DNA of 22,578 nt, taken from the IMG/VR virus record IMGVR_UViG_3300010330_000023, positions 1 to 22,578 of that record; one strand, 5' to 3'. Of the stretch, positions 10,204-20,587 are shown in pieces. This stretch comes from a virus. The notes under the pieces were generated by a model. It was not told where the DNA came from, did no database searches, and saw only the letters and a list, made by a program, of their open reading frames with translations. How positions within the stretch are numbered: the stretch's first letter is position 1; each line of letters opens with the position of its first letter. The position numbers and the translations under genes are program-made.

Positions 10204-10446
10204 TTATTCTTTTTTCTTTCTCACCACCTTTTCTTCAGTCTTCTCCTTCTTACCTGCCAATTCATCCGCAAAGGCTTCAAGAAATTCTCTCGCTTCCTGC
10301 TCCGTTTCAAACATTGCTAACTGAACTGACTGACCATTTATCAATTCCGCAACTACATATACACCTCCTCTTGTCCTTGAAAGATGTAGCCAAGCTATAG
10401 CGTCAGGGTTGATAAGCATATCTTTCTTGGTATACCGAATCCACAC
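10204..10446 (-). CDS. Small beta protein with basic tail, unknown function
   Basis: The 80-residue protein starts at a GTG that overlaps the TAG of the membrane-protein gene (TAGTG) and is preceded by a G-rich Shine-Dalgarno site. The core LINPDAIAWLHLSR, YVVAELINGQSVQLAMF and TEQEAREFLEAF suggests beta-strands and a final helix, followed by a Lys/Glu-rich tail. The core resembles the protein at 18761-18994 (NP..I/V..L, then NG/DG, then T..xA..F/L), which also follows a small membrane-protein gene. The last gene of its operon; the terminator follows. Function unknown. Confidence 0.65.
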   Translation of the reverse strand: MWIRYTKKDMLINPDAIAWLHLSRTRGGVYVVAELINGQSVQLAMFETEQEAREFLEAFADELAGKKEKTEEKVVRKKKE

Positions 10447-10688
10447 TAACTATCACCCCCCTCATCGTCGTCGTAAGGAAAGATATGCTGTTTTTCCAGC
10501 ACTGTCACCCCCTTGATCACCCCCGTAAGTAGAAGCGGATACCAAATAACCACCATAACAATACTCAGAATTACAACATCAAGAAATTTAATTGGCAATC
10601 TGCTAAAACTAACTCTAAAAAGCCATATTATAGTCGTTAATATTCCAAAGCCAAAATAAAACGCTATTAGCCACATCCACCAAGCCAC
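10446..10688 (-). CDS. Small membrane protein with two predicted helices
   Basis: The 80-residue protein has two long hydrophobic stretches, about residues 5-25 (WLIAFYFGFGILTTIIWLF) and 36-58 (FLDVVILSIVMVVIWYPLLL), and an acidic C-terminus (YDDDEGGDS). The GTG at 10688 sits at a better distance from GGGAGGTGA than the TTG at 10691. It is coupled to the small beta protein after it. The pair looks like the one at 18519-18994. Function unknown; it might anchor a replication complex or alter the host membrane. Confidence 0.65.
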   Translation of the reverse strand: MAWWMWLIAFYFGFGILTTIIWLFRVSFSRLPIKFLDVVILSIVMVVIWYPLLLTGVIKGVTVLEKQHIFPYDDDEGGDS

Positions 10689-10703
10689 CAAATCACCTCC
10701 CTC

Positions 10704-12185: not shown

Positions 12186-12463
12186 TAATTCACCTCCTTC
12201 CAAATTCCGAATGGCTTCAATCTATTTTCACGAATCAAACGGATTGCATTTATTGCATAACCTGCTATGTCCCGCAATGTGTCCTCCACTGTTTCGTCGA
12301 CTTGTGCTTCTTCAAAACACAAATGTGCCAATCGGCTAACTTTATCCATAATTCTCACGGCTATCCCATAAAGCCCAGCTATCTCTAAATTCGAATCTCC
12401 GTAATCATGATTCTTCCTCTCCAATAATTGGACTATTTCATTAGCAATTTGTTCAAATTTCAT
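12185..12463 (-). CDS. DUF1599/MazG-like nucleotide-metabolism protein
   Basis: The 92-residue helical protein has KNHDYGDSN, GIAVRIMDKVSRLAHL and a DETVEDTLRDIAGYAINAI helix. This is the signature of DUF1599, a family related in pattern to all-alpha MazG-type NTP pyrophosphohydrolases. The Asp and Glu residues in the DExxxDxxxD-like helix could bind magnesium and a nucleotide. The start ATG overlaps the clamp stop (ATGA). Proximity to the ribonucleotide reductase supports a dNTP-pool role. The substrate is unknown. Confidence 0.72.
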   Translation of the reverse strand: MKFEQIANEIVQLLERKNHDYGDSNLEIAGLYGIAVRIMDKVSRLAHLCFEEAQVDETVEDTLRDIAGYAINAIRLIRENRLKPFGIWKEVN

Positions 12464-13545
12464 TGTACCCCTCCATAATACCGAATTGGTGTAGACAGAA
12501 ATTGCCTGTTTTCACATTCAAACAGCAACGCCCTTGAGTTGCTTTCCGCTTTTATGATTAAATCGTCGCCTTTGCAATGAGTCAAAATCGCATACACATC
12601 CCTTGGATTAACCACGATCTTGAAATCCTCACCTGTCTCATTCTCGATCTCTAAATCGTATTTCGCTATACCATTTTCCGATTTTACCATAAGCGTCATT
12701 GTGTTGCCTTCGATCTCTATCATAACGGGTTCGCTCGAGTTGGTTTTACGCAAAAACGCAAATCCATCTTTAAGCTCTTTTTTGTTCACTTTGAACACAT
12801 ACTTCACCTCTGGAAAAGCCCGCTGATAATCTGGAAACTGTTCGTGAGCAATTCTGGCTTTAAAAATTACAGGATAATCTTCGAAATTCCAACTAAAGAC
12901 GATATGATTGTGTGCGACTCCTGCAGCAATGGTTACATCCTTCTCTTTGGAAATTAGTTTTGCTATTCCGTGAAAAATAGCTGGGTTCAAAAGAAAAGCG
13001 TTCTCTTGAGGTGTAGTGATATCTTCTTCTGCCAGCGCCAGTTTAAACCCATCCGAGGAAACAAAGCGCAGTTTTTTGCCTATTTCCATTCTGACAAATC
13101 TTAAACCGCCAAGTTCTTCTTTGGAAACTGCAAACACCACAGCGTTAATCATATCGAGCAGAGTTTTACCATCGATTTCAAACAGCCTTTCAAAGGTTCC
13201 ATTCTCAAATGTATAAGCCATATCCGTCATGAAAGGTAATGTAAGTTCCTTGCTTCCTACCCAAAATATCGCTTGTCTATCAGCATCAAACAAAATAGTA
13301 TCAGCTTTGATGGCTTTAAAAGCCTGTAGTGGTTTCGGATCAACTGCAAAATCCATATCTATCAAGCTCTTGGTTAATTCTACAGCCGCAGTAGATTCAG
13401 AATCTGAAAAATACATATACAGGCTTCCATCTTCAACAGTTTTAAATCCCAAAAACGGTGTGGTTTTTAGAACTGGCGATTTCTTTATCATCAAAGCCGC
13501 TTCAACAAACGCATCGAACACTTTTTTACTTATTTCAACTGCCAC
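12460..13545 (-). CDS. dnaN: DNA polymerase III beta subunit, sliding clamp
   Basis: The 361-residue protein has the length and three-domain beta-alpha repeat of bacterial DnaN clamps. Examples are ALMIKKSPVLKTTPFLGFKT in domain 1, GLRFVRMEIGKKLRFVSSDG and FKLALAEE in domain 2, and FKIVVNPRDVYAILTHC with LFECENRQFLSTPIRY at the C-terminus. The clamp encircles DNA and tethers polymerases. No polymerase or clamp loader is visible in the window, so it may recruit host enzymes. The GTG start at 13545 has a weak AGGGGTGA site. It has its own promoter inside the end of the reductase gene. Confidence 0.82.
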   Translation of the reverse strand: MAVEISKKVFDAFVEAALMIKKSPVLKTTPFLGFKTVEDGSLYMYFSDSESTAAVELTKSLIDMDFAVDPKPLQAFKAIKADTILFDADRQAIFWVGSKELTLPFMTDMAYTFENGTFERLFEIDGKTLLDMINAVVFAVSKEELGGLRFVRMEIGKKLRFVSSDGFKLALAEEDITTPQENAFLLNPAIFHGIAKLISKEKDVTIAAGVAHNHIVFSWNFEDYPVIFKARIAHEQFPDYQRAFPEVKYVFKVNKKELKDGFAFLRKTNSSEPVMIEIEGNTMTLMVKSENGIAKYDLEIENETGEDFKIVVNPRDVYAILTHCKGDDLIIKAESNSRALLFECENRQFLSTPIRYYGGVQ

Positions 13546-13563: not shown

Positions 13564-13592
13564 TATATACCACATTTCTTAAAATTTGTCAA
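13564..13592 (-). promoter_or_regulatory. Promoter upstream of the sliding clamp
   Basis: On the leftward strand TTGACA (13592-13587), a 17-base spacer and TATATA (13569-13564) form a consensus sigma-A promoter. The spacer ends TGTGG, giving an extended -10 (TGG before TATATA). It overlaps the last codons of the reductase gene and lies about 20 bases before the clamp start. The same TGTGG-TATA end occurs in the promoters at 17150-17178 and 17652-17682. Confidence 0.8.
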
Positions 13593-16270
13593 GCGTCAGT
13601 GCAAGCACTATACCCACACGCTTTGCAAGAAGCACAACCGCTTTCTATAACAAGAATTTCTCCACATACAGGACATCTCGGATTGCCTTCTTCATCTATA
13701 TAATAGCCTTTTGGTGTAAGAGTCCAGTTGCGCTTCATTTCCTCCAAATCCTTCAAAGCTTGTTTTTTCTTGCCCTTCGCTCTCACAAAGTCAATTATCT
13801 CCATAACAGCGTCAGCCATTATACTTGCTAGTGGATCATACTCATTGCGCCAATTTTTAACTTTTCTGAGCTGTTTAAAAATTTGCTGTTTGTCAACCCC
13901 AGATCTCAATGCCAATGAAACCATTCTGCCAGCGAGATTCATAAACGGTGCAAATTCTTTCGTAGATTCCGTGGCTCTAAAGAAAACTTCAAAAGGTTCG
14001 TTGTTTTCATCAAAACCAACTTCAACATACATTTTCTTGGTCTTTTGATCGCCGTTCAAAGTAAAGCGAACTTCTTTCTTGATTGAATTGATAAATGCGG
14101 GTCTTTGTTTAGGAACAATATGCCCCGTCTTGGTATCAACTGATATATTTAACTTTCCAACCACAAATGTCTTGGTTTTGGTTTCTTCCTTCTTCGCTTG
14201 CGCTTTAGCGCTCAACACCTGAGTTTGCAAAGATCCATCTCTGTAAATGGTCACATCTTTTATGTTCGGATCTTTCATGGCTTCAACGAAGATTTCTTCG
14301 ACATCTTTTATCGTTGCAGAATTCGGTAAGTTGATGGTTTTGGAAACAGCCGAAGAAACATACTCAGAAGCCGCTGAAAGAACCTTGAGATGATCCTTCC
14401 AATGCATTTCGTGGGCTGTGGTAAATGCCTCTCTAATTCTCGGATCTTTAATAACTTTGGAACTTCCATGGTTATTTTTGAGCTGTTCAAGAAACTCGGG
14501 TTTAGAGGCTTCAGGATAGTAAATTTGAAGCAGTTTATTGGAATATTCCAGAGTCTTCCATCTTTGAGTATTCGACTCACGATATTTCCTGATGTAATAC
14601 AGGCTGTAAAATGGTTCGATTCCTTGCCCAACATCCCCGAATATATCAGTTTGCATAAGAATTCCAACTGTTCCAGAAGGCTGAATAGTGGTAAGCGCAA
14701 TGTTTCTATAGGGTAATCCGGGATATGCCATGTTGCCAAACACAGCACTTTTCAACTTATCTCTCTGACGAGCTTCAGATTCCAAAACATACATAACATC
14801 AAACGCTAATTTGGCCATCAGTTCGGGCATAGAAAGTTCTGTGCCGGTTTCAATAAACTGAAGCGCAGTAGCACCAGCCAGAGCGGTGAAACCTATTCCG
14901 ACGTTCCTGAACAACATTGCAGATCTAGCCTGGCCTTCATCTGGAAAAGCCAAAAGATCAAGTTGAAAATCCAAAAATTCATATGCCACACCTGCTAAGT
15001 GAGTAAGCAGCTGAACCACACTGGTTTCGTGCTTAGAAGCATAGTGATAAACCTTAAACAGATCAATGCTCAAGAGATTGCAATTCCCAACGAGATTGTA
15101 TTCATAGCTAGAAATTAGTGGTTGTTCTCCACACACGTTAACACTTTCGATTGGTATCCTGCTCGCAACCGGATTGTCTTTGTTAATCTTGTCCAAGAAA
15201 ACCAAACCTGGATCTCCCGTTTTCCAAGCATGTTCTGCAAGCATTTTGAGTAGCTGTCTTGCTTTAATAGCTTTTTCTTTTACAATCTTGCCATTGAATT
15301 CCATGTTGACATATTCATCGTTTTCCAGCTTCTTCAAAAAGTCTTCGGTGTTGTTAATCACAAAGGAAATATTGAAGTTAGAAAGTTTACTTTCACCATC
15401 ATTATCGCGCTTTGAAGTTATGAAGTCTATCGCATCAGGATGAATTGTAAATTCTCTTTCCCAAAAGTTAGGAAGAGTAAGGTTTCCATATCCATGTGTT
15501 GCCATTCCGGCACCGCGTCTTGTTTTACCGCCCTGCTTTATAGTGGCAAGCATTTTGTCAAACATTTCCAAGAATGAAAGAGATCCAGAAGAAGTTCCGC
15601 CATGAGAGAGCGGAGCGTCTTTGTATCGAAGTTTTCCAAAATTGAGTCCTATGCCTCCACCAGCTTTGGAAATTATAGCCGCTCTATAAAGTGTTCGCAT
15701 AATGCCATCAAGAGAGTCTTCGAGAGATAAAACATTGCACGCAGCAAACTGCAAACGTGGATCAAGGTGTTCAAAAACTTCTTTCAAAACAGGAAAAGGA
15801 TCGTCTAATTTATCGATCTCGGTGTAGACTATTTTAGAATCAACATCGCCTGTAAGAGAACCTGCATTGACAAGGGTTGGTGTGTTTGGAAGAGCAACTC
15901 TGGAAGCAATCATCTTGTAAAATAGCCTCCAAAGCAGCTTTGCGGCCTTTTTTAGAAGTTCTGCTTTCTTGGATTTCGGATTGTAATACAAGCTCAAAGC
16001 GGAAACCACGGTTGTTGCAACACGCTTTGCAAGCATATTCCAATCTTCGCCGGGCCACAGATAGCGCTCTCCGGCTATCTGTTCAGCTTGGTCGGAAGGC
16101 TTGTAAGCAGACCAGTACTCAAAATATGCCATCAGCACATTCCAATCGTCTTCTATTTCCCTAACCCACTCTTTGAGATCTTGCAAGGTAGCTTTCTTGA
16201 AAAAGTGATTCACGTAATGCTCACGAATGGTGGCTCCGCTAACATGAGGATCTAAATAATCAACAGACAC
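13589..16270 (-). CDS. nrdJ: Adenosylcobalamin-dependent (class II) ribonucleotide reductase
   Basis: The 893-residue enzyme reduces ribonucleotides to deoxyribonucleotides using vitamin B12. Motifs include LPNTPTLVNAG (128-137), FAACNVLSLEDS with C178, SKAGGGIGLNFGKLR (201-215), NVCGEQPL with N378, C380 and E382 of the radical-site loop, and TIQPSGTVGIL. A TSCPD-type region and a C-terminal zinc-ribbon/redox tail (CPVCGE, CASCKACGYSAC) complete it. About 30 extra residues (139-170) lie between the PTL motif and C178, where relatives are shorter. The GTG start at 16270 follows GGGAGGGG. It supplies dNTPs for phage replication. Confidence 0.92.
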   Translation of the reverse strand: MSVDYLDPHVSGATIREHYVNHFFKKATLQDLKEWVREIEDDWNVLMAYFEYWSAYKPSDQAEQIAGERYLWPGEDWNMLAKRVATTVVSALSLYYNPKSKKAELLKKAAKLLWRLFYKMIASRVALPNTPTLVNAGSLTGDVDSKIVYTEIDKLDDPFPVLKEVFEHLDPRLQFAACNVLSLEDSLDGIMRTLYRAAIISKAGGGIGLNFGKLRYKDAPLSHGGTSSGSLSFLEMFDKMLATIKQGGKTRRGAGMATHGYGNLTLPNFWEREFTIHPDAIDFITSKRDNDGESKLSNFNISFVINNTEDFLKKLENDEYVNMEFNGKIVKEKAIKARQLLKMLAEHAWKTGDPGLVFLDKINKDNPVASRIPIESVNVCGEQPLISSYEYNLVGNCNLLSIDLFKVYHYASKHETSVVQLLTHLAGVAYEFLDFQLDLLAFPDEGQARSAMLFRNVGIGFTALAGATALQFIETGTELSMPELMAKLAFDVMYVLESEARQRDKLKSAVFGNMAYPGLPYRNIALTTIQPSGTVGILMQTDIFGDVGQGIEPFYSLYYIRKYRESNTQRWKTLEYSNKLLQIYYPEASKPEFLEQLKNNHGSSKVIKDPRIREAFTTAHEMHWKDHLKVLSAASEYVSSAVSKTINLPNSATIKDVEEIFVEAMKDPNIKDVTIYRDGSLQTQVLSAKAQAKKEETKTKTFVVGKLNISVDTKTGHIVPKQRPAFINSIKKEVRFTLNGDQKTKKMYVEVGFDENNEPFEVFFRATESTKEFAPFMNLAGRMVSLALRSGVDKQQIFKQLRKVKNWRNEYDPLASIMADAVMEIIDFVRAKGKKKQALKDLEEMKRNWTLTPKGYYIDEEGNPRCPVCGEILVIESGCASCKACGYSACTDA

Positions 16271-16285
16271 ACATACCCCTCCCTA

Positions 16286-16639
16286 TTATTCCGTGAGTTG
16301 TTCACCTGTTCTTGAAGCGATATCAGCTATCTCAAACTCAATTTCTTCACCATAAGTGGCTACCGCAGCTAGTTTAATAGCTTCCATAACGTAGGAGCGG
16401 GGTATGTGAATTTTCCACGTAGCAATCTCGCCTTTTCCAGTAACAGCCGTCGAAGAAGTTGGAAAGCTAGCTTCAAATTCAATTTTATGCCCTTCAGGAA
16501 GGGTTATGTAAACAGTTACAGGTTCATTTATGTGATACAAATAAACTTCAGCTATTTCTTTAATCTGATTGATAGAAGTTTCGAATTTCGCAATAGCTTC
16601 ATCCTGTTTAAACTCGACTTTCTTCACAATACATCTCAC
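16286..16639 (-). CDS. Unknown 117-residue beta-rich protein
   Basis: The GTG at 16639 overlaps the HNH stop (GTGA), with GGGAGG a suitable distance upstream. The sequence alternates strands (EPVTVYITLPEGHKIEFEA, ATWKIHIP) with a helix (SYVMEAIKLAAVATYG) and has no recognised motif. It lies between the HNH gene and the reductase gene, 16 bases before the latter, in one operon. I do not recognise it. Confidence 0.65.
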   Translation of the reverse strand: MRCIVKKVEFKQDEAIAKFETSINQIKEIAEVYLYHINEPVTVYITLPEGHKIEFEASFPTSSTAVTGKGEIATWKIHIPRSYVMEAIKLAAVATYGEEIEFEIADIASRTGEQLTE

Positions 16640-17013
16640 TTCTTTCGCCTCCCTTTTCTAGATTTTCTTCTCGGCTTTCTAAATCTCTTACCTCTTTTGA
16701 GCGTATCTAAAACTCTCTGAACATGTTCTGGAATCGGAAAAATGCTGCGGCGTTCTTGGTTCTCCCGTATCAAATCCGCACGGTTTAATTTCATCTGCCC
16801 GTTATGTATCTTTAAATGGCACTCATGACATACAGAAAGAAGATTATCGGGATGATGATTTGAAATAGTAGGAGGAACAGCTAAGAAATCAGGTATATGT
16901 GTATTGCGGGGATATATATGATGAACCTCTGATGCAGGTTTACCACATATTCTACATCGATGTTTATCTCTTTCTAGCACATAAGAGCGTATATCAGATG
17001 GTATCTGTTTCAA
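16636..17013 (-). CDS. HNH endonuclease
   Basis: The 125-residue protein has C20-x2-C23 and C62-x2-C65 zinc pairs and the HNH core: EVHHIYP (H31-H32), N57 and H66. The C-terminus is very basic (RKPRRKSRKGRRKK). The TTG at 17013 is chosen because AAAGGAG lies eight bases upstream; an earlier in-frame TTG at 17031 lacks this spacing. HNH enzymes of this size often help terminase cut DNA, but then they usually adjoin the terminase genes. Here it heads the replication operon about 7 kb away, so it may be a homing-type, replication-linked or host-DNA nuclease. Confidence 0.85.
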   Translation of the reverse strand: MKQIPSDIRSYVLERDKHRCRICGKPASEVHHIYPRNTHIPDFLAVPPTISNHHPDNLLSVCHECHLKIHNGQMKLNRADLIRENQERRSIFPIPEHVQRVLDTLKRGKRFRKPRRKSRKGRRKK

Positions 17014-17038
17014 TATCTCATCTCCTTTCAAAACACTT

Positions 17039-17099
17039 CCTTTCGAAGAAAACGGCCGCGGGGACGCGTCAGCGACCCGCGTGCCGTCTCCTCGAAAGG
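17039..17099 (-). other. GC-rich 61-base leader hairpin before the HNH gene
   Basis: CCTTTCGA (17039-17046) pairs with TCGAAAGG (17092-17099), ACGGC (17052-17056) with GCCGT (17083-17087), CGCGGG (17057-17062) with CCCGCG (17076-17081), and CGC with GCG around a 4-base tip. It lies in the 5' leader downstream of the leftward promoter and ends 25 bases before the start codon, near the Shine-Dalgarno site. No T tract follows in either direction, so it is not a simple terminator. GC-rich islands in AT-rich thermophile DNA often mark structured RNA. I do not recognise a riboswitch class. Confidence 0.6.
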
Positions 17100-17149
17100 T
17101 GGGGTTCCCCTACTCTTTCAGATTTTCAAATACCCAATCCGCATTATAA

Positions 17150-17178
17150 GTTATACCACACACCCGTAAGATTTGCAA
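17150..17178 (-). promoter_or_regulatory. Promoter of the leftward replication operon
   Basis: On the leftward strand TTGCAA (17178-17173), a 17-base spacer ending TGTGG and TATAAC (17155-17150) form a good promoter with extended -10. A second possible -10, TATAAT (17148-17143), follows directly. It would transcribe the hairpin leader, then the HNH gene and the reductase gene. Confidence 0.7.
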
Positions 17179-17185
17179 GTATTTC

Positions 17186-17225
17186 AACGTTACAGTTTCG
17201 CTAACTATGTTACAAAAACGTTACA
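17186..17225. repeat. Three GTTACA repeats behind the leftward promoter
   Basis: GTTACA occurs at 17189-17194, 17209-17214 and 17220-17225. The first and last extend to AACGTTACA (17186-17194, 17217-17225). They lie just upstream of the -35 of the leftward promoter, a typical place for an activator or repressor, and next to the AT-rich block. Their use is unknown. Confidence 0.5.
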
Positions 17226-17249
17226 ACGTCATGAAGAAAATTTAACACA

Positions 17250-17437
17250 CAGATATATATATTATATATAATCTATACTCCCGTATGAGATACTGTACCT
17301 GTAATAGAGTTAGGTATTAATGTAATAGCTGTTATATAATAATTCTCACATTCTTCAGAGCTATTATTCTTGTAAACTGTCATACAACGTAATAGTTAGA
17401 TAGTACGTAATAGAGCTATAATACAACGTAATAGTTA
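17250..17437. other. Candidate replication origin: AT-rich block and GTAATAG iterons
   Basis: An AT stretch, almost only alternating A and T (17251-17273), is followed by five direct copies of GTAATAG at 17301, 17322, 17389, 17407 and 17428, and one inverted TAATAG at 17366-17361. Two copies sit in a 17-bp direct repeat, ATACAACGTAATAGTTA (17382-17398, 17421-17437). Spacings of 18-21 bases between neighbours are about two helical turns. With no coding frame here, this resembles an iteron plus unwinding element. A RepA-like ATPase is encoded about 2 kb to the right. Origin function is inferred. Confidence 0.55.
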
Positions 17438-17453
17438 TACCAGATATTTTAAA

Positions 17454-17530
17454 TTTTCTTTCTTTTTCTTTTCTTTTCTTTGCAAGGTTTCTTAAGGAGA
17501 GATTTCTTTTCTTTTCTTTTTCTTTCTTTT
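17454..17530. repeat. Perfect 28-bp polypyrimidine mirror repeat
   Basis: The plus strand at 17454-17481 reads T and C only, with run lengths T4 C T3 C T5 C T4 C T4 C T3. At 17503-17530 the same bases appear in exactly reversed order. A 21-base mixed spacer (17482-17502) separates them. Homopurine-homopyrimidine mirror repeats can fold into intramolecular triplex (H-DNA). It lies beside the iterons in the gene-free region. The symmetry is seen directly; the function is unknown. Confidence 0.9.
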
Positions 17531-17571
17531 CACAAAACTGATTTTCGCTGAATTAGAGCTTAATTGCATTT

Positions 17572-17586
17572 GTTCACTGAGTGAAC
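17572..17586. promoter_or_regulatory. 15-bp palindrome, likely operator
   Basis: GTTCACTGAGTGAAC is a perfect palindrome around one central base, the usual shape of a dimeric repressor site. It lies 66 bases before the -35 of the rightward promoter. Two direct TGCAATG repeats (17613-17619, 17629-17635) stand between them. No repressor gene is seen in the window. Confidence 0.55.
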
Positions 17587-17636
17587 TTAAAAATGAATTT
17601 GCAGTATTTATGTGCAATGCGAGTTTTTTGCAATGG

Positions 17637-17682
17637 TGTCAAAAATAATTCTTGACAAACGTGTCAGAGTGTGGTATATAAT
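17637..17682 (+). promoter_or_regulatory. Rightward promoter for the dUTPase operon with overlapping operator repeats
   Basis: TTGACA (17652-17657) with a 17-base spacer ending TGTGG and TATATA (17675-17680), or TATAAT (17677-17682) with 19 bases, forms the promoter. The -35 is wrapped in symmetry: TGTCAA (17637-17642) with TTGACA, and TGACA (17653-17657) with TGTCA (17662-17666). CAAACGTGT (17656-17664), shared with promoters near 10086 and 21919, overlaps it. The dUTPase ATG is about 30 bases downstream. Confidence 0.8.
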
Positions 17683-17713
17683 ATAGCGGATGCTATTGAA
17701 AGGGGGCGGTTGG

Positions 17714-18139
17714 ATGGAAGAGTTTGTGAGGTATTATTCGGAAATGTTCCCATTGTTCAGGAAGCATGGAGAAGAGGATGCGGGTTTTGATTTGCCAACC
17801 AAAGAGGATTTTACCATCAAGCCAGGAGAGTTGAAAGTTGTTCCGACAGGTATTTATCTTGACATTCCTTCAGGGCTTTATGGACAGATCCTTGGAAGAT
17901 CGGGTTTGGCAGCAAAAGGGATTGTTATTCTTGGCGGGGTTATTGATCCTGGATATAGAGGCGAGGTCAAGGTGGTTATGTATAACGCAGGGCAGGAAGA
18001 ACTCTTTTTTGAAGCTGGAGATAGAATAGCTCAGATTGTTTTTATCAAGATTTATAATGCGCCTGTTGTTTTAGTTTCTTCAAAAAACAGACTGAGCCAT
18101 TCTGTGAGGGGAACAGGTGGTTTTGGTTCAACTGATTGA
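17714..18139 (+). CDS. dut: dUTP diphosphatase
   Basis: The 141-residue trimeric dUTPase has all five motifs: DAGFDLP (22-28), GRSGLA (61-66), GVIDPGYRGEVKVVMYN (75-91), GDRIAQIV (102-109) and the C-terminal RGTGGFGST (132-140). It converts dUTP to dUMP and pyrophosphate, which keeps uracil out of DNA and supplies dTMP synthesis. The ATG at 17714 follows AAAGGGGGCGG; a frame-matched ATG at 17690 has no ribosome site and overlaps the expected start of transcription. It is the first gene of the rightward operon. Confidence 0.95.
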   Translation: MEEFVRYYSEMFPLFRKHGEEDAGFDLPTKEDFTIKPGELKVVPTGIYLDIPSGLYGQILGRSGLAAKGIVILGGVIDPGYRGEVKVVMYNAGQEELFFEAGDRIAQIVFIKIYNAPVVLVSSKNRLSHSVRGTGGFGSTD

Positions 18140-19056: not shown

Positions 19057-19328
19057 TAGATTTCCCAGTTAGTGCGGATTGGTTGGATTTTTATCACGAA
19101 AGAGGACTTACACCAAGATCTTCAGGAAGATATTCACCAGCCGAGCGAAGACTTTTAGAAGAAATTGAAAATCTCAGAGCAGATTTCATTAGATTAGCTG
19201 AACAGCAGTCTAAGATAATGCAGATGATCTATGAATTATTGAAGCAGTTGAATAATAAGCCTCTCCCGAAAGTTCAAGAAGAAAAGCAGGATTATGGATC
19301 ACTTCTTTTGGAGGTGAGCGACGATTGA
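19044..19328 (+). CDS. Unknown coiled-coil protein before the RepA-like ATPase
   Basis: The 94-residue acidic protein has a strong ribosome site (GGAAGGAGGTGAATAT before ATG). A short N-terminal region (SADWLDFYHERGLTP) is followed by a long helix with heptad spacing, residues about 30-72 (AERRLLEEIENLRADFIRL onward). Its TGA overlaps the TTG start of the ATPase gene, so the two may be coupled and work together, for instance as a loader or organiser. That role is a guess from context. Confidence 0.65.
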   Translation: MEDLIDFPVSADWLDFYHERGLTPRSSGRYSPAERRLLEEIENLRADFIRLAEQQSKIMQMIYELLKQLNNKPLPKVQEEKQDYGSLLLEVSDD

Positions 19329-20587
19329 GACTGGAAAAACTCCCAAATGGATTCTATGCAGAAGTCCCTGTTGATCAAGGTATGATAGTGGTTCGTTATG
19401 GAAAATTATCCGAGAAAAACGATTCTTTGAGTGGGTTGTTAAACATTAAGCTAAAAGCTGGTTCGCATGTTTTTAAGCTTTATTCAGGACGATGGAATTG
19501 TATGTCAACGAGAACAAGGAAAGATTTAGCCAATTACCTCTCAAGGGTTACTCCAAAAACTTTTGAAATTGATTGGCATGAAATTATTGAATGGTTAGCG
19601 CAGGGTATTCTTGAAAAATATTTCTCATCATCTGAGGTTTTAAGGATAGTTCCTTCCGAGCACGCAGAAGTTGAATTTTTGCTTTACCCAATCCTTCCAA
19701 AGAAGCATCCAACTTTGATTTTTGCTCCTGGAGGCACTGGAAAATCTTTCGTGGCAATGTATCTGGCAATGCTGGTTCAGAACGGAATGAGTTTGCTGGA
19801 AAACACAGAAGCAGAACAAGGTGAAGTTTTATATCTGGACTGGGAAGTGGATTATCAGGAAGCACAAAGACGTTTTGGGATGTTAAGAATGAGTTTTGAA
19901 AATCAGGATTTGGAGTTTCCACTTTATAAGCGCTGTGAATTAACTCTTAAGGACGAAATTGATGATATTCTTCAGGCTGTAGCTGAGAATGGAGTGAAAT
20001 TAGTTATCATTGACTCTGTTGCGCCCGCTGTTGGAGGAGATATAAATGATTCACACAAAGTCTTGAATTTCTTTCAGGCTGTTAGGCAAATTACCACTAC
20101 AGGAGCTTCAGTTATGCTTTTGACACACGTTTCGAAAAAAGACAAAGATGAAGACTCCAGATCTCCAATAGGATCAGTGTTCTTTGAAAACTTATCAAGG
20201 CTTACATGGGAATTGAGATCTGAAATGTTTGATGATGGAATATTCGATTTTGCTTTAATACCGCGAAAATCAAATTTTGGCAAACTTGATCCAGTTGGTT
20301 TAAGGGCTGTTTTTAAGTTTCACGGTGTGCATTTTAGCAAAATTTCTGCTGATCAGGTTATTCAATACGAGAAAGAATTTGTGGTTTATGATCTTCTCAA
20401 ACGTCTGAAAAGTGCTACAGTAAAGGAGATAGCTAATCAGCTTGGTATGCGAAAGGAAAAGGTGTACACAATCTTGACAAAGTTGGAAAAACGTGGTAAG
20501 ATATACTCCGAGGGAGAGCAATGGAAAGTGCGGGAGGTTGTTTTGGAAGACATTCTTGATTTGAACGAGGTGGATTACAATGGGTAA
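19325..20587 (+). CDS. RepA-like hexameric ATPase/helicase with C-terminal winged helix
   Basis: The 420-residue protein has a RecA-fold core of the RepA/AAA_25 type. Walker A is APGGTGKS (134-141), an acidic strand EVLYLDWEVD lies at about 167-176, Walker B is LVIID (226-230) and LLTHVSK (265-271) carries the sensor His. GSVFFENLSRL follows. Residues about 350-405 form a winged helix (ATVKEIANQLGMRKEKVYT, TKLEKRGKIYSEG). RepA-type enzymes unwind DNA at origins, which suits the nearby iteron region. The TTG start overlaps the previous stop (TTGA) and follows GGAGGTGA. A recombination role is an alternative. Confidence 0.8.
   Translation: MRLEKLPNGFYAEVPVDQGMIVVRYGKLSEKNDSLSGLLNIKLKAGSHVFKLYSGRWNCMSTRTRKDLANYLSRVTPKTFEIDWHEIIEWLAQGILEKYFSSSEVLRIVPSEHAEVEFLLYPILPKKHPTLIFAPGGTGKSFVAMYLAMLVQNGMSLLENTEAEQGEVLYLDWEVDYQEAQRRFGMLRMSFENQDLEFPLYKRCELTLKDEIDDILQAVAENGVKLVIIDSVAPAVGGDINDSHKVLNFFQAVRQITTTGASVMLLTHVSKKDKDEDSRSPIGSVFFENLSRLTWELRSEMFDDGIFDFALIPRKSNFGKLDPVGLRAVFKFHGVHFSKISADQVIQYEKEFVVYDLLKRLKSATVKEIANQLGMRKEKVYTILTKLEKRGKIYSEGEQWKVREVVLEDILDLNEVDYNG
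20474..20502 (+). promoter_or_regulatory. Possible internal promoter before the resolvase gene
   Basis: TTGACA (20474-20479), a 17-base spacer ending CGTGG and TAAGAT (20497-20502) lie inside the end of the ATPase gene, 78 bases before the resolvase start. The layout repeats that of the promoters at 13564-13592 and 17652-17680. Being within coding sequence, it could be chance. Confidence 0.5.

Follow-up and report, generated by a model that had tools for sequence, protein, structure and literature searches.

A possible H-DNA-forming polypyrimidine mirror repeat between the divergent operons of a tailed phage

Introduction

H-DNA motifs as such are an already known kind of element. Most are simple repeats of a sort that mutation by itself could generate, and for this reason there is a long-standing dispute over whether H-DNA has any natural role under selection. 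To form H-DNA, a fold-back triplex in which the complementary strand is freed, a sequence must have mirror order on one strand (PMC4666352, PMC9171763), and HSeeker, a current H-DNA predictor, accepts spacers of up to 20 nt (PMC13404959). A survey of prokaryote genomes found mirror repeats normally represented in most phyla (PMC4060949). The TMECO/BoxC intrastrand triplex motifs of bacteria fold within one strand (Y, R and Hoogsteen segments), are G/C-rich and multi-copy, and were not found on phages (PMC4666352). Our literature search, with subscription papers mostly outside it, returned no account of T/C mirror repeats between the divergent operons of phages.

Here we analyse a viral sequence of 22,578 nt (IMG/VR record IMGVR_UViG_3300010330_000023, positions 1 to 22,578; hereafter the window) with such a repeat between two divergent operons. 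Irregular mirror arms that recur at one type of site in unrelated phages, with the mirror kept despite change in the arms, would separate selection for a triplex from slippage, and the elements are short enough for plasmid cloning and arm-scrambling tests.

Results

The mirror element

The initial annotation had described a perfect 28-bp polypyrimidine mirror repeat at 17454-17530, with the C positions of the first tract reversed in the second. Coordinates and sequence proved exact, and the reversed run order is directly visible in the letters:

17454-17481, plus strand: left arm of the T/C mirror repeat, T4-3-5-4-4-3 with single C separating the runs; exact reverse of 17503-17530 (mirror alignment p=0.003)
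17482-17502, plus strand: 21-nt spacer, the would-be loop
17503-17530, plus strand: right arm of the T/C mirror repeat, T3-4-4-5-3-4; exact reverse of 17454-17481

The left arm reads TTTTCTTTCTTTTTCTTTTCTTTTCTTT and the right arm has the same letters in reverse (not complement) at 28/28 positions, on either side of the spacer GCAAGGTTTCTTAAGGAGAGA; the T-run lengths are those of a metagenome assembly, where errors are possible. Two hallmarks of an H-DNA motif are thus present, namely homopurine/homopyrimidine arms (each arm holds only T and C) and mirror symmetry of the arms, whereas the spacer exceeds the HSeeker limit by one nucleotide, a limit which is a convention, so that 21 nt weakens membership in the class without settling the question. 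Open frames over the element span 32-62 codons and none has a start codon; the element is therefore non-coding, as the annotation's placement of it in a gene-free control region implied, and a coding low-complexity tract (small membrane protein) at 17454-17530 is ruled out.

The two tracts are the only pyrimidine runs of at least 20 nt in the window. Other viral loci, 789 kb in all, yielded just four runs of purines or pyrimidines of at least 22 nt and no mixed T/C or A/G mirror with arms of at least 14 nt and a spacer of at most 60 nt. The window tracts themselves are certainly exceptional, beyond chance. Given two tracts, comparison with shuffled T/C tracts, which the annotation had proposed, made their mirror order significant, not overwhelmingly so (p=0.016, run lengths permuted); drawing run lengths independently gave p=0.0034, and counting any exact mirror of at least 24 nt gave p of about 0.04. 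In a gapped local-alignment test on the same tracts, mirror order reached p=0.003 compared with p=0.32 for direct order. Judged on the window alone, mirror order is moderately significant, which is suggestive and falls short of proof.

These values bear on the simplest alternative, namely that the element is neutral low-complexity DNA in which slippage of a TTTTC-like unit left two T/C tracts that mirror one another by chance. In its favour, the runs here are only 3-5 nt long, and near-periodic T4C arms are mirror and direct repeats simultaneously. However, slippage should yield tandem and not mirror order, an argument of the annotation that we judge sound, and direct order is not significant here. 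This alternative is taken up again below with the wider scan.

The control region and its genes

The element lies in a gap between two operons, with the following features:

16636-17031, minus strand: HNH endonuclease, first leftward gene (PHROG HNH families)
17032-17713: gene-free gap of 682 bp between the leftward and rightward operons (ORF list), with a GC skew sign change at about 17500
17150-17178, minus strand: candidate promoter P-, TTGCAA-N17-TATAAC (read from the sequence)
17189-17225, plus strand: three GTTACA repeats beside P- (17189, 17209, 17220), spaced by about one and two helical turns
17253-17312: least stable 60-mer of the whole window (nearest-neighbour energies), containing the TATATATATTATATATA palindrome
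17301-17434, plus strand: five iteron-like GTAATAG repeats (17301, 17322, 17389, 17407, 17428)
17417-17476: second least stable 60-mer of the window (nearest-neighbour energies), running into the left arm; candidate unwinding site
17572-17586: perfect 15-nt odd palindrome GTTCACTGAGTGAAC, possible operator
17652-17682, plus strand: candidate promoter P+, TTGACA-N17-TATATAAT, whose -35 is overlapped by a pair of TGACA/TGTCA half-sites (read from the sequence)
17714-18139, plus strand: dUTPase, first rightward gene (PF00692, E=6e-38)
19325-20587, plus strand: RepA-like AAA_25 ATPase whose C-terminal region is winged-helix-like, a possible initiator or helicase (PF13481, E=2e-27; TrmB/MarR-like C-terminus; PHROG primase/helicase families)

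The leftward operon carries genes for HNH, ribonucleotide reductase, DnaN-like clamp, terminase, portal and capsid; the rightward operon carries those for the dUTPase, the RepA-like AAA_25 protein with its winged-helix-like end and a RusA-like resolvase. The clamp and a B12-type ribonucleotide reductase are encoded on the minus strand at 12460-13545 and 13589-16270, and a DnaN-like clamp is rare among phages (one weak match in 50,697 phage records).

Divergent promoters had been proposed by the annotation, and near-consensus sites were indeed found on both sides; P+ and P- have GTGTGGTATA in common, and TGTCA half-sites surround P+. An automatic consensus promoter scan missed both, so the two candidates rest on reading by eye. 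Between P- and P+ lie the GTTACA and GTAATAG repeats, the two least stable 60-mers, the mirror element and the 15-nt palindrome. No Rfam family, tRNA or intrinsic terminator was found in the control region. Near its left edge, the minus strand at 17040-17099 holds a GC-rich hairpin of high predicted stability (-48 kcal/mol with flanks, z=-4.6) in a gap that is AT-rich elsewhere; the hairpin lies in the probable 5' leader of the leftward operon, and neither a T-run after it nor an Rfam match to it was found.

Several of these features recall an iteron-type origin. The annotation had placed iterons beside the element, and the five GTAATAG copies (p=0.017 against dinucleotide shuffles), which are short and irregularly spaced, are candidate initiator sites that adjoin easily melted DNA (17253-17312 and 17417-17476). 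The switch of GC skew is only indirect evidence of a replication start, since divergent gene order alone could also cause it.

The same features support a reading in which the two tracts function as ordinary sites of strand opening or single-strand loading, or else as stiff A-tract-like spacers, next to the iterons of an origin; the T-richness of one strand would then matter and the mirror would be incidental. Very unstable DNA adjoins the left arm, iteron-like repeats, the skew switch and the RepA-like gene are nearby, the long spacer disfavours H-DNA, and chance mirror order in the window alone costs only p=0.003-0.04. Against it, the T/C arms themselves are not the least stable stretch of the window (nearest-neighbour energies), and it leaves unexplained the mirrors of other phages described below. 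We regard this reading as somewhat unlikely.

A further possibility is that the tract acts as RNA, within a leftward transcript whose leader would be GA-rich, or by binding a specific protein, as a platform for a phage regulator. Short repeats and palindromes are dense in the region, and a leftward transcript starting to the right of 17530 would have such a leader. Both candidate promoters point away from the element, however, so it is probably not transcribed from P+ or P-; a dimer bound to duplex DNA requires inverted and not mirror repeats, and there is no Rfam match. Such a role appears improbable.

Relatives of the phage

The phage is isolated, with true relatives of its control region absent from the collections searched. 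A TerL search returned one close relative (L065/L069, 80% identical), which stops 1 kb upstream of terL, before the control region, and two prophage-like contigs (67%) without ribonucleotide reductase or a homologous control region. Clamp, ribonucleotide reductase and helicase queries against IMG/VR gave no near relatives, nor did two TerL scans of GTDB contigs of 84,980 genomes yield any. Contigs with a related dUTPase (best 50%) were set aside, having no other gene in common with the window, and a scan with the 17-mer ATACAACGTAATAGTTA was dropped because its four matches are about the chance expectation for such a collection. The terminase is distantly similar to those of Thermus and Meiothermus phages, and by that similarity the host may be thermophilic or the habitat hot, a setting in which negative supercoiling and triplex stability are uncertain.

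Paired T/C tracts in other viral contigs

The annotation had suggested that mirror symmetry be sought at the same place in related phages; the search was carried out on unrelated ones. A total of 2.9 million viral contigs of IMG/VR were scanned for CTTTTCTTTTCTTT and, at a distance of 5-35 nt, a stretch of 20 pyrimidines in whatever order; since the pattern constrains only part of the left tract and sets no order in the right one, it favours neither mirror nor direct order. The scan returned 63 loci in 35 groups, including the window, most of them inside genes, and loci without an ORF of at least 60 aa covering the tract were taken as the non-coding set.

Clear non-coding, non-periodic mirrors outside the window were found in the related pair L107/L120, in L112 and in L115, all in divergent gaps; this supporting set comprises three families from one pattern scan. 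The gap in L107/L120 separates a portal operon from an exonuclease operon, that in L112 a terminase operon from rightward genes, and that in L115 a phosphoesterase/exonuclease operon from a glycosyltransferase. Gapped mirror alignments span 43 nt with two differences in L120 (direct p=0.36), 46 nt with four differences in L112 (direct p=0.80) and 22 nt, exact, in L115 (direct p=0.12), each with a mirror p=0.001, the floor of the test, whereas L107 has an exact 21-nt mirror that is not significant by alignment (p=0.23). Mirror order is therefore strong in three of the four loci, and none of the four is direct-ordered. Spacers in these phages measure 5 nt, as against 21 nt in the window. L107 and L120, whose flanking proteins are about 50-78% identical and which have the same loop, GCTTC, differ in the run lengths of their arms, yet each is still a mirror.

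Where divergent gaps contained a pyrimidine or purine run of at least 20 nt, a mirror of at least 17 nt accompanied it in 4/4 cases (three families), compared with 0/4 convergent gaps with such runs; tandem gaps with such runs were mostly those of a coding family described below. Runs of at least 20 nt were absent from all 42 divergent gaps of loci that had been selected without regard to T/C tracts. T/C runs in divergent gaps are rare, but mirror-ordered where present.

In favour of neutral slippage, coding low complexity makes up most of the 63 pattern loci. Counting against that reading are the rarity of long runs in unselected divergent gaps and the irregular arms of L112, L115 and L120, which are mirrors at p=0.001, and we consider it quite unlikely. 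The strand-opening reading likewise leaves unexplained why L120, L112 and L115 show mirror without direct order and why the related L107 and L120 are both mirrors with different arms.

All four TTATCCACA DnaA boxes of the 13.7-kb L112 locus are perfect and lie in the gap of the mirror, flanking the 46-nt imperfect T/C mirror on both sides (10326-10696); by this arrangement the region is a probable DnaA-dependent phage origin. In L115 (1497-1828), the mirror gives way at once to three TGTCGTCA-like repeats spaced at intervals of about 10 nt, an iteron-like layout that recalls that of the window and is not significant alone. No near named phage was found for L107, L112 or L115. Common descent of the element between the families was not seen, and distant descent is formally possible.

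The remaining mirrors of the scan were not counted as support. The tract of one family (L086, L089, L090, L100, L102, L121, L127, L130, L131, L134) codes for a small membrane protein, W-[IFN]-R-[YQ] followed by an F/L/S-rich stretch, and an apparent compensating change in L102 was discounted for the same reason. Seven of these contigs (L127, at 10255-10404, and L086, L089, L090, L100, L102 and L121) carry such short Phe/Leu/Ser-rich membrane-protein genes after amidase and holin genes and are related to Flavobacterium phages; mirror repeats in these genes are a coding accident of T/C codons. A second family (L113, L119, L132) fits a small membrane protein in a frame common to all three, M[SI]SP.K.K.GV and then F/L/S-rich. 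The 25-nt mirror of L118 (p=0.001), an irregular T/C mirror at 1363-1426, was left out since its right arm lies within the 3' end of an ORF, at the end of the predicted protein, with the left arm past the stop codon; a perfect hairpin, TTACTTTCTT-GTA-AAGAAAGTAA, adjoins it. Also uncounted were L109 and L116 (periodic, direct order equalling mirror), L123 (a simple repeat), L080 (a weak mirror, p=0.01, in ambiguous gene context) and the T/C tracts of L075 and L137, which are coding and have no homology to those of the first family.

Discussion

The reading we favour, with a probability of roughly 0.4, is that the element is an H-DNA-capable polypyrimidine mirror repeat (intramolecular triplex), located where a tailed phage has its divergent control region and, probably, its origin of replication. 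Mirror order in divergent gaps at three of four loci, together with arms that changed in L107/L120 while remaining mirrors, speaks for selection on mirror order and, by extension, on the capacity to form a triplex. Similar mirror pairs recur in the same type of gap in three or more unrelated viruses, which hints that the DNA at these sites adopts a three-stranded fold.

According to the twin-domain model, transcription from divergent promoters leaves the gap between them negatively supercoiled, and since negative supercoiling drives H-DNA, a divergent gap is a fitting site. Transcription away from both promoters would load the gap with negative supercoils, whereupon one half of the T/C strand could fold back and pair with the purine strand of the other half in T.A*T and C+.G*C triads. 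The triplex would absorb supercoils and leave the loop and some 28 nt of the purine strand unpaired, a possible entry point for helicase or primase in replication. The same structure might insulate the two promoters, keeping them from disturbing one another. Formation of H-DNA, unwinding, priming and insulation are all inferred. Several points count against the H-DNA reading: C+.G*C triads favour acid pH, the spacer is over the HSeeker limit and long beside the 5 nt found elsewhere, mirror order in the window by itself is only moderately significant, the supporting set is three families of one scan with L107 not significant by alignment, and the host may be thermophilic.

A broader proposal is that unrelated phages independently evolved triplex-forming T/C mirrors between divergent operons as supercoil-driven switches, which would serve both to open the origin and to separate transcription programmes, and would constitute a class of functional H-DNA in prokaryotic viruses; we consider this doubtful at present.

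Compared with known systems, the element resembles H-DNA mirror repeats (H-palindromes) in its pure pyrimidine arms, which at 28 nt are easily long enough for a triplex, in its exact mirror and in the negative supercoiling expected at its site. It differs from them in its spacer of 21 nt, where predictors allow up to 20, in its setting in a phage control region and in an irregular run order unlike simple (TC)n or (GAA)n. With the TMECO/BoxC motifs it shares an intergenic position, triplex capability and a prokaryotic setting (PMC4666352), but it is a two-arm T/C mirror in single copy. Like iteron-type origins (lambda ori, plasmid oris), the region combines short repeats with DNA that melts easily, close to a replication operon that encodes a RepA-like ATPase; it departs from them in the shortness and irregular spacing of the repeats and in the mirror order of the adjoining T/C tract, and its initiator and origin are candidates.
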